In this document: positions 1,981-58,000 of the stretch, piece by piece
How positions within the stretch are numbered: the stretch's first letter is position 1
How the letters are laid out: each line of letters begins with the position of its first letter
Origin: Beroe forskalii
Lineage: Eukaryota > Ctenophora > Nuda > Beroida > Beroidae
Assembly (NCBI GenBank): GCA_011033025.1
Contig: WFMF01000033.1
Span: 558,001-622,000 of the forward strand
DNA length: 64,000 nt
Direction: 5' to 3'
Program-made: the position numbers and the translations under genes
Notes under the pieces: model-generated
Told to the model about the DNA's origin: nothing
Database searches by the model: none
Seen by the model: the letters and a program-made list of their open reading frames with translations, nothing else

Positions 1981-4900
1981 CTGCTTGTCAGGGCCTTAGC
2001 AATGCATGTGCACCTTACACTTAGTGCCTTAGATTCATACACAGAAAATATAGATTTTATGATCATAATATCGTATTGCCTGATAGAGAAGAAATTTCGG
2101 TTCATCCGTTTATCACTCATGCATTGGTGGATTTGAATGTAGATCATCACCCATGAATTGGTAAATTTAATTCCCATTCCTCCGTCAGATGCATGTGCAC
2201 AGGATAATGAGAACAATCCCATCTACGGATCACACACCTACAACTGGCCGATAGCATTCGAGGATGACGTGATGGAGCTTCCCTGCGAATACAATGTTTG
2301 AAGTGAAAGTGACTTATTGATCATATTATGGCAACTTCATGACTAAATTCAATTCCAGAAATAGCTTAGTGAATCACAAGTTACAACCCATATATAGCGA
2401 AAAAAACGTCATTTTAGAAGTTTGTACGTATAGAAATTGTCTTAGAATAACGAGAAAGCAACAAAGAAATGTGAAGTGATAAACGGGAAGTATGAATACG
2501 CAGCTACAGATTTCAGTAAATGCAACACCAAAGTAACAGATGAGATAGACGCGATTGCAGAGGTATGTTACGAGGCTAAAGTGTAACCTGGGTACAATTC
2601 CAAGCAATTAATTGAAATTAATTCGTTACAAACGACCAACGTGTGATTCCGTATACAAAGTAAATAAGACATCAATTCGGGACATGATTTTTGAGGAATG
2701 AAAAAACCCGTCTCGGATTAGAAAGATCTTAATTCAAAATATGCCCAAGACCACCACTCTACCAAAATACTACGCCAGGAGACAGTGGAAAACCAGGAAG
2801 AGCAAGTGGAAATGTCAGAGCAAATCAAGGAGATAACGGAAGAGAACTCGGATATCATGAATACAGACAACGTAGAGAAGACAGCCAGCATCATAGACGA
2901 TGTCCTGGACTACCAAACTGATGAACCGCTTCCTGAGGATGTGAGTAAATATATCATGTAACGTGTATAGTTTCACAAAAATGGTAAGGCTGAAAGTAAT
3001 CACCTTTCTGAAAGTAAATGGAAATGTCAAAATTTGAGAGCCCTCATGCAGATCAAATAGAAAATTGACTGGCAAGACTCACTTCATCATGTGCAAGTTT
3101 AAGGAAAATATTTTCTGATGTAGAAAAGTGAAAAGCTCTGTAATAAACATCGATTATTCAGGTAAAAGAGAATGTGCTGAAAACAGTGGACTCAGTGCAT
3201 CATTCAACTAAATCTGAAGAACTACAACAAGGAAACGCAGCTTCTGAGTATGAATACGATTTCCTAGTACTAGTAGATACTAGATTTTGATTTGATCATA
3301 AATTGTTTGATTTCGCCATTTCCCAAATAGTCTTCAAGTCTTCACAGTATTGGAGTGCAGACTGCCATTCTACAGATCCCCACAACACTTCTACCCAGGA
3401 TGAGGGAGTCAGTGAAGAAGTTGTCGGACAGAATGTCTGACGCCGACACCTCCGAGTACATCACGGAGCCGACTATTGGGGTGGCAGTGGTGGAGCCTAA
3501 TGCTAACTCCTCCGACACTGCGTTTAGTATCGTTGGGGATGCCACCGACTTCTCCAAGACGAGGAGTGTGTCGGCCGAGGGGGCAGATACAACCAATCGA
3601 CCTGTCATCTTTTCTGTGAGTCACTGAGTAATGCATTTATAGATTCATAAAACGTAGAAGAAATGTTCCGTCTTCTATCGAACAAGAAAGATCTGGGGTA
3701 TCTTTAAATACTTCCATAATAGCACCTATCAGTGGAGACAGGACTAATTTCAACTAAAACCTAAGAGGTAAGAGGGGGACTTTACACCAGTGCCATGTTC
3801 AGGTGAAGGTCCCGGCTGAACCCGGACAATCGAGCAGTGACAGCTATCCTCTACGACACCACCAAGTTCTACCCAGACAATGAGACAGTCACGGAGGTAG
3901 AGTCTGTCTTTGCAGCTCAGTTCACCGGCTCCTCCTCAAAGAATAGTGTGAGTGGCTCAAGTCGAATGAGAATTATCTTCTTGATCTCATCTCAACAAAT
4001 GCCAATCTCACTGTGAGATTGGCATTTGTTGAAATAAGATCAAGAAGATAATAAGCTTAACCGATTCATTTGAATACTAATAATATGTCAACATGTTGAT
4101 CTTGTCAATTAAATTTGTGAACTGTAAAGTGATCTATATCTAAGTATCTACAGTCTTCAAATTTTCAGGACATCACAAAGATTGTCTCCATGGTAACAGA
4201 TGTCAGCTATTCAAAGACCGACGAGAGGGTAGACTTTGCTGATAATAAGAACATCGAACTCAAATATGCTGTCAAGGAGGGTATTCAGTATTCACATGGG
4301 GTTTCATGGTTTTAGGTTACTTATCATCCCTCACTCTGTTATATGCTGCAAAACCAGCTCACTTTTCGAATGGCTCATCAATAAATCTTATCAAATATCA
4401 GCGGGGTCCTGTTTTCTCGCGGGCAGATTAGGCATCTAAGATCTGATAGTGATTTTGGGACACTGAGGTTTAAAAAAAATAAAAGTAATAAAAAATAAAA
4501 ATATTTAAAAAAAATCTCAATACTCACTTGATAAGGGCCCAAACAACCTATTACCCGCCCAACACAAAAACCATCTCCCAAACCAGACCTAACCTATATG
4601 ACCCTCCCCTCCCTCTCACTACCCATTACCCACCCGGCCCACTAACCGCCCCCACCCAGGAGGAGACCCCTAACGTGTACTACAAGATGCACCTGACCTA
4701 CGAGTACGAGTGTGTGTACTACGACACCGAAACCAGCACGTGGGTCAGAGGCGAGAAGTCAGGTAAATAACCAACCCTACAACATCACATTGACTTGGGT
4801 CAGGAAATGATCCCTTAATTCCTGTTTAATTCCTGTGGGTCAGAGGCGCGCAATCAGGTAAATTACCAACCCTGCAACATCGCATTGACTGACGCAAACT

Positions 4901-7900
4901 GGCTTTGCTTTGACCTTCAAGAGGGCACCGATATCTAGATTCATGTCAAGCCTTCAAGCAAGGCAGCTAGATTCTAGTCTTACTTCTTTCATTGATCAAT
5001 GATCAGTCTGTGCAAACCAGATTGGTTGAACATACCCAACGTGCAAAATACCACACTATCTTTTCAGCTATTCGATTCATTCAAGTATGTAGTCCTTGCA
5101 GCATGGCATCCTAATGAGCTAAAGGAAGTTTGTGTCTCAGGTTGTAAGACGATTGTGGACGTGAAAAAGAACGGAGAGAACATAGTGACATGTCAGTGTG
5201 ATCACATGACCAGCTTTGCTGTGCTTATGGTAAGCATGCATTTTCAATTATACATACAAATTTATAGTGAAACCATACATTATACTAACCATACAAAGAA
5301 TGTACCATCAGCCTCAGACCTATAGTTGTTTTTTTGATAATTGAACTTTAATTAAGTGTAAAATAGCCTGAAATATTTCGGCACATTTTCAATGCGGAAT
5401 GCAATCTTGAACTCGAATATTAAGTAGGTAATTACATGCAACTGCTTATGACAAAGTAATATTCCAGCACGGATTCTATACTATCTCTTGATAAACCATA
5501 CATTATACTAACCATAAAAATAATGCAATGAATTTACCATAAACACTTCTAATCAACTCCCTCCGCAGTCGTTTGGCAGTGATTACGACCCAATAGAGGA
5601 GATAATATCACAGATACTGCTAGCCATCAGTCTCGGGTGCCTCTTCTGTACCATCGTGGCGTACCTTCCAGCCAAGTTAGTAATCGCATCCAGGTGGGAC
5701 TTGAGAAGTGAGTCAATTGGCATGAAGTGATCACCACAATATAAAACTTAATTGAGAAAATAAAATAGGTCTGTCACTCGAAACCAGCGCCAGCTTATGA
5801 CTTCACCACTCCTCAGGGATCTCCTGAAGACGCGGACAGTTCGTCTGAACCTGCTGCTGGTGACGTCACTGATCTTCGCTATTATTATCTTCTACTTCAT
5901 GGAGGTGGTTGTTTCAACGAACATCCAGGACGGAAATGTGCCTTCAGACACTGACACACCCTCCGTACAATGCATCATTGTAAGTACACTCCTTACTTCT
6001 TTAGTCCTTTACCTGGCCACAGGCCAAAATAAAAAATAGCCCGATTTATTTGGCTATTGCCAATTCTTGCAGACGTTTAATGATAACCACATAATTGTGT
6101 ACACAGTGTGTTTCTGTTTCACTAACGACCTTGAATGGCCATATGAAAGTTACTATAATCACTCACCAACATCAACATCAAAGTTATATTATTAACAAAT
6201 TAGAGGGCTCTGGATTAGCCGTACTTCTTGATTATACACACTATAGTTTGAGGATCTAAATTGTGAAATGCTTCATCAGCAGCAAAATGTCTGAACATAC
6301 ACCAGTCCTGATTATGCAATGATAATTAACACAATTAACCGTTAATCTAATGCCAAGCACGGTATGACGAGCTGCATATATAGGGCTCTCTACCGGCTAG
6401 TCGGCTACCCGTGTCTCAACTCTGAGCTATGTATCCTGATCGTTTCCAGTCTAACTTCTAAACGTTCTAAACTTTTGTGAAGGAATTACACTTGCTTCAA
6501 TTTTTCGCAGGTACCCCAAATATTCCCCTAGAACATCACCTCACTACTGCAGGTTGCCTTCCTGATGAACTACCTGTGGCTGTGTCAGATGGGGTGGATG
6601 GTATGTGAGGCTGTGGTCATGTACCGGGCACTGGTCAGCTGCGTCGTCAACTCCCACATACACAGATACATGCTCAAGTTCAACCTGGCCTGCTGGGGTG
6701 AGTTAGATCTCTTGACTCTTTCTTCAGCCATTTGATCTGATTGTTGACTGTTAAAGGTTTGGGATACACCCATTCATCAACGAATAATTAGATGGCACAA
6801 TAGTTTAGCAATTCTGTAAATATTTAATGGTTTGAGTTACTTAGTCTATTCTTGCACATAACTTCTTGCTAAGCTTAGCTTTCTGCGGCGGTCCTAGTTA
6901 TAACCCTGTTCTTGCATTTGAAAATACGCTGTTTTTCTCCAGTTAACTGATCTGACCATCAAGGTTCACAACAGCCCAACTATAGAATTAATGATTCACA
7001 ACAGCAGTCAGCAGTTCTTGTGACGTTTTTATTAGGGCGTTCGGAAATGATTGTCACTACAGGCATAAAATGAAAAATATGACCAAATATGTCAAAATTT
7101 CGACATATTCGAGTACAAGGGTCTCTACCAGACTGAATTGCAAATTTTCAGTGTTAACGAAGATTTTTGAGTGGGTCATCTAGCTGGTTTTTTGATTGCT
7201 TTCAGGTGCTCCGCTGTATGGCGAATTCTACATCTTCTAGGCCATGTTTTTATGGTCCGATTTCACTATTCAGGACATATTCAGGGCGTTCAGGTCCAAA
7301 ACTAAAGAATAGGATGATTGGTTGACATTCGGGGCAAATTTATGTACAATTTAACCGTGTATGATTGATAAAGATTGGAGCTAAATGTGGCAAATTTAAC
7401 AGCTCAGTAACCGATAATGCAGTACACATCTTGCACACAAGTTTCTGAAATTAAGACAATAACTCAAAATCTTAAAAATGGTTGTCCCGTGTACGGAAAG
7501 GTCTGAAGTAATAGCCTAACACGATAACCGAACGTATCGAGTTATTTAAATGTTATATTTCTGGGTAATTGTCAGAGCAAAAGTTGCAATTGCCCTATCT
7601 GGAGCATATCCTTTTTGAGGTTAAAGCACCCCTTAAGATTATTTCAACTCGACGAAAAACAGTTCATTTGTTCCAGTAAGCATCCACGTGTGCTGCAACA
7701 TCCTCATTTTGATTATCTCACACTTCCTGGGTCCGTTGATAGCGTGTTTTCTTTGATAACGAAATTTGTGGTCAGTTTCGTACAGCGGAGCAAAAAATTA
7801 GAAATTTGAATCCGCCGTAGAATGGGCTAAGAAAATTTAGTTATCGGTAAAACACGATTATCTTAATCCAAAAATGTCTGAAAAAAACGAATATCGCATC

Positions 7901-27150: not shown

Positions 27151-27858
27151 CTGTCGACGGACAGTTACCGGTCGGTAACCGGTCGGTTACCGACCACTTA
27201 ACGGTCACTTAACGGTCGGTTAACGGTCGGTTGACGGACGGTTACCGCCCACGGACAGTTACCGGTCGGTTGACGGATACTTAACGGACGGACAGTTACC
27301 GGTCGGTTACCGGTCGGTTACCGGTCGGTTAACGGTCACTTAACGGTCGGTTAACGGACGGTTACCGCCCACGGACAGTTACCGCTCGGTTAACGGTCGG
27401 TTACCGGTCACTTAACGGTCGGTTAACGGTCAGTTACCGCCCACGGGCAGTAACCGGTCGGTTAACGGTCGGTTACCGGTCACTTAATGGTCGGTTAACG
27501 GACGGTTACCGCCCACGGACAGTTACCGGTCGGTTAACGGTCGGTTACCGGTCACTTAACGGTCGGTTAACGGACGGTTACCGCCCACGGACAGTTACCG
27601 GTCGGTTAACGGTCGGTTACCGGTCACTTAACGGTCGGTTAACGGTCAGTTACCGCCCACGGACAGTTACCGGTCGGTTAACGGTCGGTTACCGATCACT
27701 TAACGGTCGGTTAACGAACGGATACCGCCCACGGACAGTTACCGGTCGGTTAACGGTCGGTTACCGGTCACTTAACGGTCGGTTAACGGACGGTTACCGC
27801 CCACGGGCAGTAACCGGTCGGTTAACGGTCAGTGACCGGTCACTTAACGGCCGGTTAG
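27151..27858 (+). repeat. left terminal minisatellite array of the Merlin-type element
   Basis: Higher-order repeat of about 70 bases built from 10-13 base units, each ending with the block GGTTACCGCCCACGGACAGT. The right array is the inverted counterpart. Confidence 0.85.
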
Positions 27859-29097: not shown

Positions 29098-29632
29098 CTT
29101 TAGCGACCAGTAACTGACCTTGGGCGGTAACCGTTCGTTAACCGACCGTTAAATGACCGGTAACCGACCGGTAACTGTCCGTAACCGAGCGGTAACCGTC
29201 CGTTAACCGACCGTTAACGTCCGTTAAGTGACCGACCGGTAACCGACCGTTAACCGACCGGTAACTGCTCGTGGGCGTTAACCGTCCGTTAACCGACCGT
29301 TGACCGGTAACCGACCGTTAACGGTATCTCCGTGGGCGGTAACCGTACGTTAACCGACCAGTAACTGCCCGTGGGCGGTAACCGTCCGTTAACCGACCGT
29401 TAACCGACCGTTAAAGGACCGGTAACTGTCTGTGGGCGGTAACCGTCCGTTAACCGACCGTTAAGTGACCGGTAACCGACCGGTAACTGTCCGTCCGTTA
29501 AGTGTCCGTTAACCGACCGGTAACTGTCCGTGGGCGGTAACCGTCCGTTAACCGACCGTTAACCGACCGTTAACTGACCGGTAACCGACCGATAACCGAC
29601 CGTTAACCGACCGGTAACTGTCCGTCGACAGA
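29098..29632 (-). repeat. right terminal minisatellite array of the Merlin-type element
   Basis: Inverted counterpart of the left array: CCGTTAACCGACCGGTAACT-type units with the block CGTGGGCGGTAACCGTCCG. It is somewhat shorter than the left array. Confidence 0.85.
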
Positions 29633-31604: not shown

Positions 31605-34600
31605 ATGAAAGGCGGAGAACCTACAGAACGTAGGGCCAGCAACCAGGAGGCGGTTATTCAGAGGTAAGCGTTTTCTCGCAGTATTATAAGCTTTTTTCAG
31701 AACCATGTCATTACGTGTTTTTGGAGTGTGTGTACCATGCCATTGGCCATTACACGGAGCTTGAAAGAGTGTCTCCAATAAGTGTCAAGAATATGTGGAC
31801 CGCTGGAGTAATTAGTCTCTGTCAGCTGCTCCATTGTTTTCCTATCATTACTTGCTTGTTGATACTTTGATATGATGCTTTGAGCTCCTGTCTGTAAAAG
31901 TTTTCTCTGCCTCTGCTATTTGTTTGTCATATCTTAACGGTAAAACTTTGTCATATCAAGGCAAGGTTTTCGATCGATGTTAAATTTTGAGTCTGATTTT
32001 TTTAAATCGTTGTTGCATTCCCCTCTATTCTCTAAATTCCACCCCGTAGTTACGATACGAAAGACAACATCCAGCTGGCGGAACATGTCACAATCAAGGA
32101 CCTCAAGGAGCTGATGAACCACTTCTCAGCCGGTAAAGACGGGAAGCCCTCCTCTGCCATATCCCTCGACAAGAAGCAGTTCATGAGCGCAATCACGGAG
32201 CTGCTGGAGAACTCCCAGTGGGAATACCTCTTAGGAAGCCCAGAGTGGGAGAAGCAGCTAGACTTGCTCTTTAATAAGGTGAATTGTGACAAAAACAGCT
32301 AGACTTGCTCTTCAATAAGGTTGATAACTTGATAGACACAAAAATTCCCCGAATCATTCTCCAATAAGGTGACAAAAAAGCTAGACTTGGTCTTCAGTGA
32401 CAAAACAGCTACACAGTGACAAAACAGCTACACCAAGTAATTAAATGACATTCACATAGCGACAGCTAAAGAAGCCTCACAGACCATGGTAACCAGCTGT
32501 CCATATACTACCTTTATATCGCCAGGTGGATGCGTCGTGTGACGGGCTGGTAGACTGGAATGAGTTCTGCACGTACATGCTGCTGCAGTACCAGGAAAAG
32601 GACGCAGTGCACAGCAGGAAGGCGCCCTTCAAGAGGGAGGAGAAGTACGTTAAGGACAGTGCCAGCAAGGAGACCATCACGAGGGTCTGCTACGCTAACA
32701 ACCCCAGCAGATACCTCAGCGTCACCAGGGTCAGTGCCCGTTATGTGTCACTAGGGTCAGTGCCCGTTATATGTCACCAGGGTCAGTGCCCGTTATATGT
32801 CACCAGGGTCAGTGCCCGTTATATGTCACCAGGGTCAGTGCCCGTTATATGTCGCCAGGGTCAGTGCCCGTTATGTGTCACTAGGGTCAGTGCCCGTTAT
32901 ATGTCACCAGGGTCAGTGCCCGTTATATGTCACCAGGGTCAGTGCCCGTTATATGGCCCGGGATTAAGGGGGTATTTCAATATTAAATCACGCTGAAAAC
33001 ACGAATAATGTAGTATTGAGAATTCTGCTAAATGCTGTTTAGTGTTTAATAGTCAGGGACGAATTGGTCAATATATAAATCCCGTGCATATGGAGTGTTA
33101 ATAAGGAGTTAGGAACGGTTTCGTGTACTTTAGACTATTCTGAATCGATTTAGACCTGCCGCCAATTTTTTTTTCGATGGCGTCACCCATTTTTGGCCAC
33201 GCCCATTTTTGTCCTATCGCAGACCCACGTCAGATCATCAAAATGTTATTTTTTCACAAATATGGCATGTAGGGTATCGAAATAGGGGTTTTTTGGGACG
33301 AGAAACACGATGCAACTATTGTTTTTAGCCCTAAGTGTTCCCAATTTAAGATAAGGTGACCACACCCACTTTTTATCAGTATGCGTATGCGAAAATGATG
33401 CAAATTTTAAGATTGACTTTCTTATAGCATGTAGGGTATCGGAATAGGGGTTTTTTGGGACGAGAAACACGATGCAACTATTGTTTTCAGCCCTAAGTGT
33501 TTCCATTTTAAGATAAGGTGACCACACCCACTTTTTATCAGTACGCGTATGCGAAAATGATGCAAATTTTAAGATTGACTTTCCTATAGCATGTAGGGTA
33601 TCAAAAGAGGGGTTTTTTGGGACGAGAAACACGATGCAACTATTGTTTTCAGCCCTAAGTGTTTCCAATTTAAGATAAGGTGACCACACCCACTTTTAAT
33701 ATCAGTACGCGTATGCGAAAATGATGCAAATTTTAAGATTGACTTTCCTATAGCATGTAGGGTATCAAAATAGGGTTTTTTTGGGACGAGAAACACGATG
33801 CAACTATTGCTTTAAGCTCTAAGCGTTTCCATTTTAAGATAAGGTGGCCACGCTCTCTTCAGATAATTGTGCAAAGGCAAAAATGACGAAAAATCAAAGT
33901 GGGTTATTTGGAACCAGTGTTTTCATTTTGAACCATGGTTACCACTCCTACGAGTCATTATCACCTGAAGACTGGAAAGAAATCAAATCTTGATAGAAGC
34001 ATTCATATAACAAAATCGGTATTATCCTTGTATAGGCTTACAGAGATACAAATATGAAATGTGCATTGGATGGCATAAGATATATAAATAGAGTCAAAAA
34101 GGGACAATATCAGTATTAATACTGTAAAGGGATGGTTCCACAATCAACACATTGGTTATCAATGTTGTAGGTAATTTGAATCCAGGTTACTCACATCGAG
34201 ATTACGATTCCTCAACTGCAGTAGTTGCTTACCTTACCTTATCTTTGATGTGGAATCATTGACTGTGGATGTCTCGATCAGCTTATGAAATATTACTTAA
34301 CTTTCGTTCGAGGCTTGTGATTTCGATTGAAGGTGGTGCTGATATCAACGATGTTGTTTTTACTGATGAAGAGTTGGCAGCATCAATTTTGGTATACGCA
34401 ATAATACGGGTAGGTAGTTATTCTTCTAAATTAGAACCATGAAATGTATATTATTTTCATGAATGTATGTTGAATTCTTTGGAAGGATGCCCTAAATCGT
34501 GTTACATAAGTTTACTCCAGGAAGTAAGTTTTGCGATACTTGAAACTTCACCTTATCACTTTTTCCTAGAAAAATAGTTGGAAATGCATGAAGTGTCTGG

Positions 34601-37600
34601 AACGGTTAATTTCTGTTCATCACAAAGTAGAGGACACTGAACTTCGTCATAAGATCATCCAATGGCTTATAACTTACAAGGATACCAGACAAGGTCCAAT
34701 TCTTGTACGTAGAAAGCTTGCACCCTTGAAAGGGTGGGACCCAGAAACATTGTACTTGGAATACATCAACTTTAACAGTTTATGGAAACAGTTCATTGGT
34801 GTTGCTGTCACAGGTTTGATTTCTACTTTTCTATTCGAATTTCATTTCATTCGAACCAAAAAACGATCAATCATAGAGCATAAAATATTAACAAAAAATG
34901 CCACATTTTTAAATTCATTCTGCTTTTTGATGAACTACCAATATTGCAGCAAAGACATCAGTATCGGTGGAGGGTATAGCATGTCTTCTGTACCCTTCCA
35001 ATTTTCCCGAACTCATGCAGCAGCATGGAAACATATGGTTTGGTGATGTACGAGATAATAGAAGTATTAATGAATCTCCATTGGTTGAAATCACTCTTCT
35101 AGAGACAGTTCCCTACACGGACTGGGAAAGTGAATTACCGCCCAGAGGAAATTGATCTGCTGTATGCAGATCATGAAGAACCGGTTTGTCTTTTAGTTTC
35201 AGGACAACTTGATAGCTTTGAATCGATGAATGGAATAGCATCAGTCAGCCAATATGTAACCATCTACTATATGGAAGATTAAAGTGTTGAGTATTTAGTG
35301 CTAGTTTTCTGCTAGTAGTGATTCGGCAATAATTTCATAACAATCATTGCAGGCAGCAAGACGATCTGGAGTTCTCGACTTAGAATTATGCATTTATTGC
35401 CAAGAAAGAAAGCGTGATGAGAAAACAAGTATGTATAATAGTATAATGTAGTCATTTGAAGTTTATTTAAGCTGTGTGGCTGACAACACTACTGTAATTT
35501 AAGTGACTATCCAGTATCCACTATCATTTGGTGTGAAACATGAATCTCGCCTCGGTTTCATCAAACTCTAACTCATCTTCAGGTAAGTTCACCAAGAAAG
35601 AATCTTTGAAGCGATGTTTGGATTCAGTTCATGAAAGAGCTAAGTATGGGGATCAAGTTGTTCTACAGATTTGTGGCCCTTTGTTGTCTTCAAAAGTCAG
35701 TTTAGAGACAATGTTTAAAAAGGGCTGCTATCACCGTTCTTGTTATAAACGCTTCAATTCAAAGCAACACTTGGAGAGAGCCAAGCAGCGCTATGAAACA
35801 GGTATTTTGTCAAATAGTTGCAGTATAATTGAATATGAAAGTTAATTGAGAATTATCGTATCAGATTTCCTATAATTATATTGGTCTGGCAAAGTAGGTA
35901 GTGTCAGAAAAATTAGTACTGTCATATCGATAAGTTGATTGAGGGTGATATTCATTCAATAGGAGAACCTGGAAGTCTGGTACGTGGCCCTGGTCGCCCC
36001 TCTGACAGCAACTCGCAAACAGACGATTCTAGACCACTCCCAGGCGATTTGCCTGGACCTAGGGTGCTTAGGTCTAGGATGGAACCTGTCGACAAGGAAT
36101 TGTAAGTCAATATTTTGTTCGGCAATATCTTTAAATATCATTCATGGAGATATTAAATATTGATTTATCTCTTGATCGGTGGAACGATTTACTTCTTCTT
36201 ATTTCATTGCACTTCTAGCGATAATTGAGTTATCCTTAGGCTGAGACTATATTTTTCAGGTGTATTATCAATCTTGATGATGAAAGTGAAGGAAAACTGC
36301 ATCTTGTTCAGACCAAGAAGACTTGCAATGATTTAGAGTTTATTGCTAGGAACACAACTGACAACGCACTCAAGTTAAGGCTCCTGTCCAACCATGGTGC
36401 CTTAGATGCGACAGCTGGTGATGTAAAATATCATTTGCATTGCTTGGTTAAGAAGTTAAGAGAATGTGGTAGAGATGAATCAAAGAAAACAGACAGTATT
36501 ACAGTACACACCACAGCAGAGATGACATTCATTGTATGGGTTATGCGTGAGTTTGCCACAGCAAATCATGAAATATATTTAACTATGGCCCAGCTCCATG
36601 ATAAATTCATTGAAATCATCACTGATCTATTTGGATCAGAACCTGTCCCAGACAAATATATATCTCGATATTATCGAGTTGCTCTGAAAAATCTTATTGA
36701 ATCAAACTTATCCGGACTTTCTTTTGTGAAATCTCCTCGAATGAATGAGCCAGAAAGACTTATTTCACAGTCATTAGTGAGCTGGAGTGTTGATGCTGCT
36801 CTCAAGAAAGATGAACAACTTTGGAAATTATTTGAGGTATCTGCACAAATCAGGGATAAGATAACAGAATCTAGTTCAAACAGCTGGAACTTCTGTGGTG
36901 ATTTCTCTACAATGAGCATCCCCTTAGAACTAATCCTTCTATTACGGTGGATAATGTTTGGAAATAAGGAGTTAGAACTTGCTAAGGAGTATGATGTAAA
37001 GAACTCAGTTAAAATTGTTGCAAATCTTGTCATCAAAAACTTTAAAACTAGTCGGGCTATTAATCGTAGTGTTGTGACAGCAGTTAACAAAGATCAAATG
37101 AAAAGGGAGCGACGTTTCTATCGTAATGAAACCCCATTATCTGTTGGACTCAGTCTCTCAGTACATACAAGATCAAGAGACAAGTCACAAATAGAAATGC
37201 TTTCGTCGCTTAATCTTGGATGCAGTTATCAGAAGTTATTGGAGATTGATAGGAGCATCCTGAATTATGTCATGAATGAGTGCTTTCATGACAGTGGTAA
37301 GGTATTCATTCCAGCAACAATTGCTCCAGACAAGAGAGTATTCTTTGCAATTGACAATAGTGACTTTCTTCGTGATACAAAAGATGGAAAGAATCAACAA
37401 AACTATACCATTGCAGTTGTTTTTCAGAATGGAGCGAATGTAGATAAATCAGGACTTCGACAGAAACTTTTACGAGGTAAGGAACTCCCAAAAACACCAA
37501 TGACTCTTCCTTCAAGTGTTACTATAAACGAAGACTTACCTGCTCCTAAGCCTGGCCCAAACTCAACGCCAATTCATAATTTCCGAGGAACAATTCATTT

Positions 37601-40600
37601 ATCTGAACAAAGGGCTAAGGATCATGATCAATGTTGGGCAGTTTTGCAGTGCATGGAAAAATCTTCTAATATGCCTACTTATAAATCTTACAATGCCAAA
37701 ACTACTGAAAAGGCTGATGTGACAACTGTTGCCATGCTACCACTCATCAAATCTCCACCCACTAACTATGGTACCCTTCTCTCAGCTCTTCTGCAATGTC
37801 AACAAATTTCGCTGATAACCTCACCAGGCTTGAAAACAATTGTTACTTTAGATATGCAGCTTTACATAAAAGCTGTCCAACTCATTGATACCCGGCCAGA
37901 ATTGAAAGGGAAGTACATTTTAAGAATTGGGGAACTTCATGAGTTATTTGCACAACTTCGATGTATAGGAAAATATATTGAAGGGAGTGGACTAGATGAA
38001 ATCTTCACCCATTGTAATATCTTCGGGCCTGGGGTTATGGCCAAAATAATTGATGGAAAACACATGAAACGGTGTGTCAATGCTTCCTTGGTACTATATT
38101 GTTGCATCTATGATTTGTTTTTAGACAACTTCCTGGTGAAAAATGGTGATATGGCAACAAAGCTCAAGAGCATTACTTCACAAGTGTTAGATAAGATCAA
38201 AGGTAGCATGGGACAGAGTCTTATAGATGTTCATGAAACTTTCGTGCATGATCTACAAGAATTGAACTTCTTTAAAAGATTCAGAGACTTCAGAAGTGAT
38301 CTTAAAAGCCAAGGAAAATATCTGAACAATCTGCTCAGTATGATTGAAAACATGCTTCTTTACCTACGAGCAACACGTCAGCAATTATGGGAATTACATC
38401 TAGTTGCTAAAGATGAATTCACAAAGTACTACTTTGCCCTTGACTTGACACATTATGCTAGAATGTCACCTGTCTATTTATCAGCAATGTACAGTCTCAA
38501 GTCTGATGATAACGAGAGTTGGACGTTTCTCAAGAAAAACTTTTGTGTTAACAAGTCCAAGAAAGCTTTTGTAGCTATTGGGGTCGATCATGCCCTAGAG
38601 CAGATGAATAGAGAACTTAAATCTATTGGTGGAATAACTGGACTGTCTAACGAGGCCATTGATAGCCATTGCTATACAATTCCTATCAAACATGCACTAC
38701 TTGCTAAATATAGTGATGAGTTTAATGTGGCCAATTTGATTGCAAACACTTCTAGTTCTTCTGAATTTCACCACGAAGATCCAGGAAGCTTCAAAGAATT
38801 TCTTTCAAAGAGTATACATTCATATGGTGCATGCTTAAAAGAATACCTGGGAGATGATTGGGTTGATAACGAGACTGTTTTCAATGTAATGACAAATTCA
38901 ATTCTAGAACCTGATGAAGAATTGTTAGATATAGAGAAAATAGGGACCAAGCTATATGTTGATTTCATCAAAGAGAGAGAAACAAAAACAGATATTTCAG
39001 TTTGGGACACCCTGCATAAACGAAAGCTGATTACATTCCAGACTGCAGCAAAAACTCTGACAATAAAACTAAAAGACAAGGTGATCAAACTAAAGGAGGA
39101 AAAGAACCTTATGACTAAACTTTTAGTCATCTCTCGTAGTAGACCTGAGATAGATGTAGCTGCGCTTTTTAAGGTTCATGAGTTTTCAATTGTACCAAGG
39201 TCAATATTTGACAAAACTGGGACCCCACTCAAATGTACAGACAAATCTGATTGTCTACACGATTTAGAAGATTTGGTCAGTGGAGAATCAATTACAGCTG
39301 TATTGGGATCAGCTGACTGCCTTGTAATTGATGGAATGGGTCTTGTAAACCAGCTGAAAATTGGATCTACTGTTGAAACTGTCAGTGACCTTGCTGAGCA
39401 ATTCTGTAACCGCATAAAAAATCTACTGAATGGAGAAACAATTATTGTTCTGATATTCGACAGCTATTCAGAGGATAAAGAGAACATCAAAGCTCAAACA
39501 TGGACTTCGAGACACAAGAAGCAGATTCGATATAAACTATCCATGAAAACAATCATCAAAAACATAAACCTGAAGCAATTGCTGTCACATCCAGAAAACA
39601 AGAGAAGCCTCACCTCTATTTTCAGTAAATCGTTCAAACGTATATTCTCGAATATGCAATTTGTTGTTTCACATGAATTATTGATTGAAAGCAATGTACC
39701 TGGATGGACTGCTCATGAACATACTCACTTCGAGGCTGATACTCTCCTTTTGTGTGTAATTCAGGAGATAGTGACCCTTAATGACAGTCTTAAAAATTTC
39801 AAGATCATATCACCAGATACAGATGTGTTAATCTTGACAGTATGCTTCTTATTACATCATAGCCATAGACTTGATGTTGTTTTTGAACTTCTCACAAGCA
39901 AGCAAAACCGGATTATTTGGCCCAAGAAAATTATGGAAAAACTTGGAAAGCAGAAAACAGATGCTCTTCTGGGTTTTTACGTTTTGACAGGATGTGATCA
40001 AATAGGTACTTTCAATGGGGTCACAAAGAAGAGGTGTTTCAAAGCATTTATGAATTTGGCGACTAGTGATCCTTCAATCCTTGCTCTTTCACAACTTGGG
40101 TTGAGAGAAGAACCATCAGACTTATGCACGAAGGGGCTGGAGAAGTTCATGATACAAATTTATTGCAGCAAAAAGAAAGATACAGAAGAGCGATTCAAAC
40201 ACCTTGAAGATATAGGCCAGCTGAGATGGGAGTTATATTCAAAACATCAAATTGATGGAGATTTATTACCACCTACACCTGCAGCTCTTAGATTCAAACT
40301 TTTGAGAATCAATTTTGTTTGTCTGACATGGAAACGGTTGATGCATTGCTTCTCTCCAGCTATTCCCGAAATCTCTGAAAGCCATGGATGGAAAATAGAG
40401 GATGGAAGACTTATAGCTATTATGACTGATCAGTTACCAGCTCCGAAGTTCTCACTTGAACTAGCTCAGTGCAATTGCAAAAAATCCAAATGTTCTGACA
40501 AAAAATGCTCATGTTACAAACTGAATTTGAAATGCACGGAAGCTTGTGGGTGTGTTGATTGTGAGAATGATGATGACAATGGTTTTGAGCAAATTGATTG

Positions 40601-43600
40601 ATTTTTGAGCTATTGAGATAATATGGACTATGGATATAGTAGTGACGTTTCAGTGACATCAATTTTCAATTCACAAACTCCAATGTTTGAAATATATTTC
40701 AACCTTAATTCATTGTGATTGACCTACATGTGCTATATAGACATCAGTATTTCATAAATTTGCATCATTTTTGCCTACGCGTACTAAATAAAAGTGGGCG
40801 TGGCCACCTTATCTTAAAATGGAAACGCTTAGAGCTTAAAGCAATAGTTGCATCGTGTCTCTCGTCCCAAAAAACCCCTATTTTGATACCCTACATGCTA
40901 TAGGAAAGTCAATCTTAAAATTTGCATCATTTTCGCATAAGCGTACTGATAAAAAGTGGGTGTGGTCACCTTATCTTAAATTGGAAACACTTAGGGCTGA
41001 AAACAATAGTTGCATCGTGTTTCTCGTCCCAAAAAACCCCTATTTCGATACCCTACATGCTATAAGAAAGTCAATCTTAAAATTTGCATCATTTTCGCAT
41101 ACGCGTACTGATAAGAAGTGGGTGTGGTCACCTTATCTTAAATTGGGAACACTTAGGGCTAAAAACAATAGTTGCATCGTGTTTCTCGTCCCAAAAAAAC
41201 CCTATTTCGATACCCTACATGCCATATTTGTGAAAAAATAACATTTTGATGATCCGACATGGGTCTGCGATAGGACAAAAATGGGCGTGGCCAAAAATGG
41301 GTGACGCCATCGAAAAAAAAATTGGCGGCAGGTCTAAATCGATTCAGAATAGTCTAAAGTACCCAAAACCGTTCCTAACTCCTTATTAACACTCCATATG
41401 CACGGGATACCATTTCGTCCCTGACTATAAATAACCCTATCAGGACGGAAATTTATCCATGTGGTCGATGGACATGGAGCTGCAAAAGTCAGTACAGGTA
41501 TGCGAGGCTCAGGCGTCCCCGAGCGCAGTTCAAACATTCCAAGCAACTGCAACCCCTCGCAAGCAAAGGTAATGTTTTGATTATAGAGCACGGAATCAAT
41601 ATAGGAATGTAAAACTTCCAGAAAATCCCGCTAACAAGCGGTAATTCACACGCATATTGTTGACCATTATCAAGTATTGACAGCAACTTGGACACTGACT
41701 GAACCGCACAGTCCCAACAGGCTCTGGATAACGGACATGTGCGTGTTGGAGAACGTGAACAAGCTGGTCATCACGACCACCTCCCGAGAGATGTACTTCT
41801 ACGATATGAGCACCAAGACTTACTCCGTCCAGTTCCTATTGTTCGGTAACTATCGGGGATGATTCGACAGATGGAGTTTGTCGGAATAACCAAGGAATTA
41901 GTGATTGATTTAATTGCAGTTTCATTGAATATCCGACAGGATCTAACGTGCCTTTCCACTTCCCCAGAACTGGAGTACGTGCCTCTGTGTCTCACCTACT
42001 GGTACAACAAATCAGACCCTGGAGGCCGGAGTCTTCTCATATTCGGGGATGACAACGGGTGCGTCCACATCTTCAACTTCTTGCAGCCCCTCAAGGGGCT
42101 GTTCGAGTCTCCAACCAAAAAACAAGACGGCCATCTCAAGATCAACATGAAGGTAAGAAGATGTATGTTTCAGCTTAATTTTTTTGGAGGGATTTTTGGA
42201 AAGTGAATGGAATGAGGCGGAAGAATAATGATAAATAGAATTTAAAGAAGGTTGTGCCATTGTCTCAACCCGCCACTCACAGCACACATCCCACAGGACC
42301 TGTCAGACCACAGCACTCACACCTCCCTTCCCACAGGACCTGTCAGACCACAGTACGAAGGTGCACCACACACAGTGCATGGGGGGACCTGTCCACTCGG
42401 ACTGGGTGAGGAAAGTAGTCTACATCCCCGAGACAGACTACCTGCTCTCCTGCTCCAACTCCTCCGAACAAAGCATGGTCCTGCAGGACCGCGTCAAGAA
42501 GAAGAAGAACTACATCTACAAAGTCAGAAAGGTAGATATACAAAATAATATGGGGTGAATATGGGGATCCCGGCAGATTTTTTGCCGGGATTCTGGTCGA
42601 TCCTTCGCAGGGAGCTCCAGATTTTAATCTATACAAAAGAATCACTTAATTAACTATTCGCAACATATCCCATGATTGCATGAACCATCCACCACTGCAG
42701 GGCATCAACTGTTTCGACTTCAACAAGAACCTGAACATCATCGTGACGGGGAGCACAGACCACACAGTCCGGCTGTGGAACCCCTACGTGGAGAGTAAAC
42801 CCACTGCCCTGCTCAAGGGACACCAGACCTCCATCCTGGATGTAGCCATACACGAGAGCGCAGGCCAGATCTTCAGTTACAGCATGGATGTGGTGGGTTA
42901 TTACGACTTAAGTGATTTGTTAGGATCTATTTGAGAACCATTAGAACTAGATTGTATTAGAGTATTAGAATAATCTTGAAAGTCACAGCCAGGCGATACA
43001 CGGTCCAAGATGGATTTGCAAACTTGCTAACATCAGTTGAATACATAGCAAATTAAATTGTCAGGTCATTGTTATTAGGTGATCGGTAGCAAGTCTCCTA
43101 CCTTATGCAAGCGAGACAGTGACAATGTTTCATTCAATGAACAAAAATCAACACAAAACTTAAAATTCAAAAGTAGAAGATTAGAAGAAACGTGGACTTA
43201 AATTATAAGTTGGCCGTAATAATATGTGGTCGTCATAATATCAAATCATGGTAAAACTACCTATGTCCACGATGCGAATTGCGAGTGACCACTGAACGTA
43301 ATGTGCTTCCCAGGTATTGAAAGTGTACGATATCAAGGAGCACACGTGTCTACAAACTGTTATTCTCAAGTTCCCCAGAGGGAGCAGAGTTCCAGATCAC
43401 GGACCCTTCGTCCTTCACATTCAGGTACTGTCAATTCTCTCGCTCTTGGTAATCAGATACTGTAAATGATTTCGTCTTTATTCCTTCAGGGTACTGTCAA
43501 TGCTTTCGTCCTTATTCCTTGAGGGTACTGTTGATGCGTTCGTCTTTGATAATCAGATACTGTAATTGCTTTCGTCTTTGATAACCAGGTAAATCCTTTT

Positions 43601-55000: not shown

Positions 55001-58000
55001 TATCATGGCGTAGTTTATAAATTCTACCTCAGTTTGTTAATAAATTTTCAGTAATGGGGTTACTTGCATTGTTTCAGGATTTAGTTCCAGGAACAATAAT
55101 TGTATATGTAATTATAGCGAACAAAGAAATGAGTAAATACTATAACCAAAGCACTTGGTCGCCCAGGCACTAGTTTAGTTGTTCGTTTATTACATTTTTT
55201 CAGTTAAGTACATTTGTAGGACTGTACATTTAGTCGGAACATCAGACTATCTGACTTTGCAGCAAAACCAATCCGTGGAAAGGACCCAAACCCATGTATT
55301 AATTAAAACTATGTTCATCCGAAACTTTTATAAGCTAATTCCTGACATTGATGTTATCAAATCGCTATGATTACATTAACTCATTAATCGAAGGCCATTT
55401 CATCATTATCGTAAAACTGATTGTAATGATTACGTATTGCATTAGCTTATTTTGAAACCAAATTTCCGTCAATTTCGCATAAGTATATTACTTACATGTT
55501 TACATAAATGGCCTTTATTATATTATGCATGTTATCAGGTCATGCCACCTAGTACTGAGCGACGAGTTGGTCTGATCCTGCTGGGCATTGGGCGTGGTCA
55601 CTTAACCCAAGCTAACACCATGTACAAGATCCTGACCCGTCAGCTACACCACCAAGTCAGCGTGGTGGTGATCATGTGTAACGAGCATTACCTACCGGAT
55701 GTAAACGAGTACGAGTTGGCTAGTGTCCCTGTGCACCGTGTTAACATCAGCCTGAAGAACTCCCTCCCTAACTCCGTACCTTCCCTCATCATGCATACCA
55801 CGTACGAGCTCTTTAAACCCAAACCCTTCCTAAACCAACTCGAGGAAAGATTCCATGTAGACGTGTGGATGAACTTCATGGCACCCATCCAACGAACTCG
55901 CCGTCCTTTGTTCCACATCACATCTCAAGTGGCAGTGGACAGCATTCTCATAGACATCCTCGTGTTCTTCTTGTCAGGAACGTTAGTCAATATAGGAGAT
56001 GTAACGCCACGGGCTCAGCACGCCATCTCCACACTTATAGACGGTGATAAGCTAGACAGATCGCATTCTCCGTCAAGTGAAGTGCTGGTACTGGCTTACG
56101 CCGTGTCGGGAACAGCACTGCTCAACACGCTCTGTAGCATCGCAGACAACCACAAGGAAATATCTTTTCACTACTACTGCTCAGAAGCCCCAGGAGTTGC
56201 TATGCCGGCTAACGTGTCGTGGTTTGCACCGAGCTACTCTACCTTCAGGAGTAAGTTAGCTCAGTGCGCGGCTGTGCTGTGTACCAGTGGAAATGAGTTA
56301 ATCCAGGAGTGTGCCCTGAACGGCATACCATGCGCCACCCTGCCAGCTCACCCCGCTCACTTCGAACAGCACTCTAACTTCGCCAAGTACACCTCCAAAG
56401 GTTGGGCGGTGGAGATGACACCTGACTTGTCGATCAGAGACCTGTGTGGAGACACGGGGAGACTGAGGAGAGCGGCGGACGAGATGGAGACTATGTTGGG
56501 TGAGCGGAATGCGACCATCCGGTATATGCTGAGGGAGTGTGAGACGGACCTGAGGAATCCAGATAAACAACATGATAACATGGTGTCGAGGTACAGCAGA
56601 GTACGGCAAACTGTAAAACTTTCCATCCTTGTAATAGCAATTTATTGTTTGATGACACTTTTAGTAGGATGTTTTGGGAATACATAAATATGTGAAAACT
56701 AAATTTACATAGTTTGTAGGAAGCATATTATCATCTGGAATGCAGTCTTGATTAAACAAAGTAAATAAATTCAAATATTGCTTGATTATCATGTCCAGGA
56801 ACTTTGAAAGTTTTAAACGCCAAAGATGTATAAGAGAGTAGGAGGTATGTCATATACAGTATAATTTTATAAACATTGTTTTAACATAATGTCATAACGC
56901 ATATTATGCATCGTGACAACTCAGAGTTACAGAGTGTCAGTCTAGTCTTTTATTCTACGTTTAATGTTAATTGTCATAGATCTATAGATGACACATATTT
57001 TCGAATTTGAAATCCGTTAATACCTAACTTTATCTATATTGATTTATTGATTCAATCAATTCATTTTAAAGATTGAAATCTATCTTAATTCATTCTGTAA
57101 GAATACTTGTGGTGGATCATGGAAGTAGGTGTCAACTGAAATTTTTGTGTTGCAAATTTCTAAATTAAATCTATTTTATCAGTAAGGCAAATGTCATCAA
57201 AATATTTTTCAAAATCTGAAGAAAATCAAATCAGAAAAGGACAGTTTAAAGCAGACTACAAGCGTGAAGTGAAGACGTCAGCGTTCACGCAAGCTTTCAT
57301 ATGACATTCTTAGAATCTTGCAGGATTCAGCGTCAAATTTCAAGATAAGGGTTGGGAGTTACCATGGACGTAAATTATACGTACCATTTTACACGATACA
57401 TAAAATTACAAAGTTATTGAAGGTGTTTTGTTTGTGTTGTTTGGAATGTTTTGTTTGCTCCAAGTTCATTGTGATTGATAATTGGTCGCCGATTGATGAA
57501 CCGCGTCCAGCACATATTTTGTGCACTTGATCGTTGTTAATTTGAAAAGCTGAAGTAACTGCTCTCTTAAGATAATTAAAGCTTTGCAAAAATAGTTTAT
57601 ATATTCACCAAAACAGGTGCAACGCGCCACAATTGATCTAGTAGAACATAACAACCCTAATTAAGATATATATTCAATCCTCTTGATACCTATTTTTTCC
57701 CTCCCCATTGGCCTTTTTGTGAATACAAAAAGGCAAATGAGAGGGTTGGCAGAGATCGTGGTCTGGAAGGGTGAGAAATAGATTATGTGTATATCAGGTC
57801 CAGTTTTGCAATACAACTACTGTAATTTCTGGAAAGTGCCCGGATTGCTCCTTTATAATATCAGTCGCGAAAATGTCCCTCCGTCCGTCCGTCCGTCCGT
57901 CCGTCCCTCCGTCCCCATATCACATAAATCTTCAAAATAACGAATTTCTTAATTCATGGAGCTGTCGGTTGTCAAAAGTATAAATCTTATAGGTTGATCT

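Follow-up and report, generated by a model that had tools for sequence, protein, structure and literature searches.

Academ transposons are long elements, with a mean length of 5,565 bp in bivalves according to the excerpt cited (PMC10294476). Two groups of them are described in the cited passages: AcademX, with a DDE transposase, an encoded nuclease, and target-site duplications (TSDs) of 3 or 4 bp (PMC10045372, PMC9587614), and AcademH, which is placed in the same superfamily and also has an accessory enzyme, a helicase, together with TSDs of 9 or 10 bp (PMC10045372). The same passage ties this difference in TSD length to the helicase versus the nuclease (PMC10045372). A DDE transposase with an accessory nuclease is also described for Kolobok lineages E, D, and P, and several unrelated nucleases are stated there to have been gained by Kolobok lineages (PMC9587614, in the part cited). 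We analyzed 64,000 nucleotides of the genome of the ctenophore Beroe forskalii (contig WFMF01000033.1, positions 558,001 to 622,000, assembly GCA_011033025.1), hereafter the window, and found an 8,378-bp element that we read, with a probability of roughly 0.8, as an autonomous cut-and-paste transposon, probably of the AcademX type. In this reading, the element has one short (S) and one long (L) end, and its protein would bind these ends, carry out 3'-end chemistry with a DDE site, and work on 5' strands with a FEN/XPG site.

The element spans 33050-41427 on the forward strand, and its limits were set by termini (TAGTCAGGG) common to other elements of the genome and by a 3-bp duplication, TAA, identified by flank comparison at 33047-33049 on the left and 41428-41430 on the right. 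The first-pass annotation had described a DNA transposon with long inverted repeats and one large gene, which we confirmed, but had placed it at 33052-41425 between TA duplications. The locus was correct, but both ends were shifted by 2 bp. The TA forms the outer part of the element's own end, 5'-TAGTCAGGGACGAA, and not a duplication. We examined 21 loci, comprising the window element and 20 fetched loci; L036, L042, and L044 were dropped from the duplication count and the end alignment, each having one end that was changed or could not be located in the stretch. All 18 complete elements had an exact 3-bp match outside TAGTCAGG...CCTGACTA, which rules out TA as the target duplication. The 3-bp sequences varied between elements, and flank duplications of 4 to 10 bp were found in 0 of the 18. 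As a control, left and right flanks taken from different elements matched at 3 bp in 20 out of 306 pairs.

The termini recur across the genome, with match counts that are lower bounds. The 12-mer GTCAGGGACGAA has 73 matches versus 29 for the reversed string, only 2.5 times background. For the two end types, each taken as 28 bp, 67 and 47 matches were counted (at most 3 mismatches), and for their reversed patterns 0 and 0. Of 180 candidate terminal inverted repeat (TIR) places, 40 were scored, and all of these matched; within its TIR context GTCAGGGACGAA is therefore not due to chance. Two elements, L035 and L037, were inserted about 17 bp apart within one repeat family. When the flanks of L035 were joined with one CAG removed, 38 of the 40 places scored, out of 1,073 candidates, matched all 180 positions at 97-98%, and the two other alignments stopped at 178 or 179. 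These matches were taken as empty sites from the alignment extents, the letters not having been viewed. For the window element, a genome search yielded no empty site, each flank matching only itself. Thus, of the properties that the first-pass annotation proposed to look for among genome copies, common termini were found, as were apparent empty sites for L035, while TA duplications were not.

The inverted arms are located at 33050-33698 (+), by inverted-repeat comparison, and 40789-41427 (-). Their complementarity is 97% across 620 nt, and in front of this lies a terminal match of 23 nt at 91%. Both contain subterminal 162-bp tandem repeats, at 33261-33886 (+, about 3.6 copies) and, by repeat analysis, at 40756-41241 (-, about 2.9 copies). 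The units hold a GGGACGA motif resembling the terminus, and similar motifs also recur at an inner position.

The element encodes one large spliced gene, as first proposed. The open frame at 36240-40601, 1,453 codons long, was joined to three upstream exons, and the four exons, all on the forward strand with AG/GT borders, read through without an internal stop. As assigned from these borders, the gene has at least four exons; no start codon was found. The most 5' exon assigned (35353-35428; GT/AG borders and frame continuity) contains a CxxC, and the second (35583-35801; frame continuity and tblastn with P0010 and P0016, with which it aligns) completes a C2HC-like zinc finger (CxxC...HRSC). The second finger of homologues, CVFC, is CIIN in the window protein and may be degenerate. 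These are followed by a linker exon (35963-36101; borders and frame continuity) and the last exon (36260-40601; open frame, fold models, and Pfam), which encodes a winged-helix-like region (36486-36779, residues 83-180), a predicted DDE domain, and the FEN/XPG and CXC domains. Residues are numbered along the open frame of the last exon, and the protein was folded as two overlapping pieces.

The FEN/XPG nuclease domain is located at 39243-40376 (residues ~1002-1379). Its fold was predicted for the C-terminal piece by the structure model and structural matches, and the seven acids D1031, D1074, E1165, D1167, D1193, D1195, and D1253 are invariant in all 12 rows of alignment A2 (without P0009 and P0013), the window protein included. 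The fold and the seven acids are shared with FEN1, EXO1, XPG, GEN1, and XRN nucleases; in contrast to these, the domain is found inside a transposase, and the identity in structural alignments is ~9-14%. Searching with the nuclease region as a single sequence yielded one chain, a weak match (E 0.24). The tesmin/TSO1-like CXC domain (40467-40571, residues 1410-1444) matched PF03638 at E 1.4e-6, above the cut-off. When the last exon was scanned against Pfam, no other match had a meaningful E; one to PerC (E 0.15) was taken as chance. The CXC was also the only domain that stood out (as LIN54) in a profile search of solved chains with two alignments. Both domains had been proposed in the first-pass annotation, and both were upheld.

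Upstream, we identified a predicted RNase H-type DDE domain with a helical insertion (37326-38615, residues ~363-792) which, like the winged-helix-like region and the asymmetry of the ends described below, had not been noted before. Its residues D372, D538, and E787 occupy positions that are catalytic in the RNase H fold predicted here, and all rows of alignment A3 (without P0003 and P0013) that cover these positions conserve them. The long structural matches of this region were Hermes, RAG1, and ISCth4, at moderate Z; a family missing from a VIA-align list was not taken as absence of relation. Pfam DUF6589 (PF20231) has no match in the window protein itself. Its matches are to the relatives P0020 (27.2 bits, cut-off 27) and P0013 (42.8) and, in the genome, to a relative at C441 (30.5), within the segment aligning with the DDE region. 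The C441 relative (C441:44588-45265) is a 1,297-aa frame that joins DUF6589 over the cut-off with a match to the C-terminal nuclease part, and DUF6589 is therefore likely to be part of a DDE transposase domain, a role that this family would gain here. Searches with both regions found the DDE region and the FEN/XPG domain in one chain in eight proteins. In the same genome, the distant families C274 and C441 also have the two in single frames.

The flap nuclease had been taken as the only catalytic domain. Its FEN/XPG nature stands, but its sole catalytic role does not, given the predicted DDE domain upstream; a confident DDE fold elsewhere in the protein had been named as evidence against that proposal, and what we found is a predicted one with moderate matches. 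A transposon perhaps using a flap nuclease thus becomes a putative two-active-site enzyme for which candidate catalytic residues are mapped and the ends and duplication length are exactly defined. It is very improbable, in our view, that the FEN/XPG domain acts as the transposase, with a purely structural role for the RNase H-like part. The invariance of the seven acids in A2 and the better match of the FEN fold are in favor of this, but the DDE residues are equally conserved at their predicted catalytic positions, a fixed short duplication is the expected product of paired DDE strand transfer, and no FEN/XPG enzyme is known to join DNA.

We propose that the zinc finger, winged helix, and CXC domain would bind the end and subterminal motifs, and that the protein would pair one S end with one L end in an asymmetric synapsis, as the natural history of the ends suggests. 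The DDE site would nick and join 3' ends at a 3-bp stagger, consistent with the residues and the duplication. The FEN/XPG site could cut or trim the 5' strand, either in second-strand cleavage at the donor or on 5' flaps in excision or gap repair, by analogy with Tn7, in which TnsA complements the DDE enzyme TnsB. Alternatively, the nuclease may not be used on the ends at all and may serve host-facing tasks, for instance the repair of gaps or a gain of copies coupled to replication. We regard this as possible but lean against it. FEN-type enzymes do act in repair and replication, and the cited part of PMC9587614, with its several unrelated accessory nucleases in Kolobok lineages, fits such a use, but the nuclease lies in the same chain as the DDE region in the eight proteins and the C274 and C441 frames, and the AcademH/AcademX difference in TSD length is tied to helicase versus nuclease in the passage cited (PMC10045372).

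A 3-bp duplication in all 18 elements, an encoded nuclease, and a predicted DDD/E transposase fit the AcademX lineage, as does the length of the element, and AcademX is therefore the most likely placement. Unlike AcademH, the element has a nuclease and 3-bp duplications; Pfam scanning of the last exon and of two frames upstream showed no helicase, and a duplication of 9 or 10 bp was seen in 0 of the 18 elements. Kolobok duplications are TTAA, whereas the duplications here are 3 bp and varied, with 0 of the 18 elements having one of 4 bp. The Kolobok accessory nucleases also have other folds, as far as the cited part describes them (PMC9587614). RAG/ProtoRAG and 12/23 signals differ in the spacing to the inner motif, which is 49/59 here, and in the FEN/XPG and CXC domains added here; no RAG chain was found in the profile search of solved chains, with RAG1 among the moderate-Z structural matches. 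The earlier suggestion of an undescribed class with a flap nuclease as transposase thus stands for the presence of a flap nuclease but probably not for a new class, as the features fit a known lineage.

Several observations weigh against this reading of the element. The N-terminal model had no Foldseek match at E <= 0.001; its top rows were membrane transporters (E 0.06), and RAG1 was at rank 8 (E 0.72). All VIA Z values for the DDE region were below 8, with an unrelated Smc5/6 chain as the top row. In alignment A1, the most distant relative, P0013, has E in place of D at position 1031 and lacks a D in column 372, a place at which the alignment is disturbed by its repeats. The intact frame with its upstream exons is a single copy in the assembly. 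The AcademX placement rests on features described in print rather than on a comparison with Academ sequences. The AcademX nuclease is of the XPG type; the passage cited for it says only "nuclease". The division of labor between the DDE and FEN/XPG sites is one that we infer.

Remnants of the gene were found at C814 (43% over 60 residues, with stops) and C336 (50% over 49 residues), and both loci also contain the TIR of the window element at 73-76%. The gene and the ends thus belong together; gene copies lacking these repeats had been named as evidence against the element, and the two remnants share their loci with them. When the 20 fetched loci were searched by tblastn with the protein, there was no match at E 1e-3, so the related elements there look non-autonomous. 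One of these, L041 (9.7 kb, same ends), has large low-complexity, minisatellite-like frames at 4185-7258. One scan of viral contigs gave 68 pattern matches, none of which was confirmed as a relative.

The two ends of complete elements differ: one, the L end, has a 10-bp block GTCAATATAT after position 17, and the other, the S end, lacks it. In the window element, the terminal 17-bp motif of the L end is at 33050-33066 (+), followed by the block, found in L ends only, at 33067-33076 (+), and the motif of the S end is at 41411-41427 (-). All three were defined by an alignment of 36 ends, together with genome end matches for the S motif and with genome end matches and pairing for the block. When matches of the two 28-bp end types within 12 kb were paired, 39 elements were obtained, of which 38 were S-L, one was S-S, and none was L-L; label shuffles gave a mean of 19.7 mixed pairs and a maximum of 32. 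The 36 out of 114 ends without a partner within 12 kb are uninformative on pairing. The only S-S pair (C447:56941-62411) may be two damaged elements. L ends have an inner GTTAGG motif beginning at 59 (17 of 18 ends; at 58 in the other), and all 17 measurable S ends have it at 49, the S arm of L033 being left out for having no inner-motif match.

Past the indel, the two arms of one element agree at 97.2% on average, and arms of different elements at 86.8% (same type) and 86.9% (different type), so that no overall trace of end type is left there. In each of the three zones inside the indel, agreement within elements was above that of shuffles; in the nearest zone, inner columns 28-60, it was 0.861 (shuffled mean 0.625, maximum 0.806). 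The outer 17 bp of these 18 elements have a single informative column, which at 0.944 did not exceed the shuffle maximum (0.944). In the genome pairs, outer positions 10-11 were common to both ends in 28 of 38 (shuffled mean 12.0, maximum 22). The inner-zone agreement and these positions indicate that subfamily changes arrived in both arms, outside as well as inside an indel that was itself kept. The closest arm among the 36 was the partner for 14, a same-type arm of another element for 14, and an other-type arm for 8. Sharing therefore follows subfamilies for the most part, and the support for S/L pairing rests on a handful of subfamilies as independent cases, not 18.

Spacer asymmetry is also a feature of the P element; a literature search for that asymmetry found no paper. 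The cited part of PMC8289069 describes asymmetric ends for 12/23 signals and for ProtoRAG. The S/L ends may likewise follow a maintained rule of one short and one long end. The asymmetry is new in this analysis, with no claim of being unpublished, as no literature search was aimed at Academ end asymmetry. We suggest tentatively that the family moves only as an S/L pair, with 10 bp, one helical turn, enforcing a 12/23-like asymmetric synapsis outside RAG, and with DDE and flap-nuclease sites in one chain, the latter cutting the non-transferred strand. The main rival, only a little short of even odds, is that the asymmetry was inherited by descent without function and that exchange happened to spare the indel. 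All elements share ancestry, the 10 bp of L ends are nearly identical everywhere, an S-S pair exists, and conversion tracts might miss the indel by chance; the few subfamilies, with the partner closest for 14 of 36 arms, and the outer informative column also fit descent. Against it stand the 97.2% agreement within elements versus 86.8% and 86.9% across them, and the sharing on both sides of the indel (28 of 38 pairs; 0.861). This asymmetry, kept while the surrounding arms converge, provides evidence from natural history for an asymmetric synapsis in these elements.

Directly left of the element lies a 26-bp tandem repeat in nine copies (32721-32955), and a WD40 repeat exon (PF00400) is located to its right (42650-42934). 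Three other frames near the element had no Pfam match. By eye, the frames on either side look like exons of one host gene, and the element may sit in an intron. A 413-aa open frame at 55446-56687 resembles glycosyltransferases of family 1, with a match to PF13528 that falls short of the cut-off (22.3 bits versus 25). Two related 11-bp-based minisatellites, GTTAACGGTCG and its complement, are found in opposite orientation at 27164-27857 and 29128-29625.
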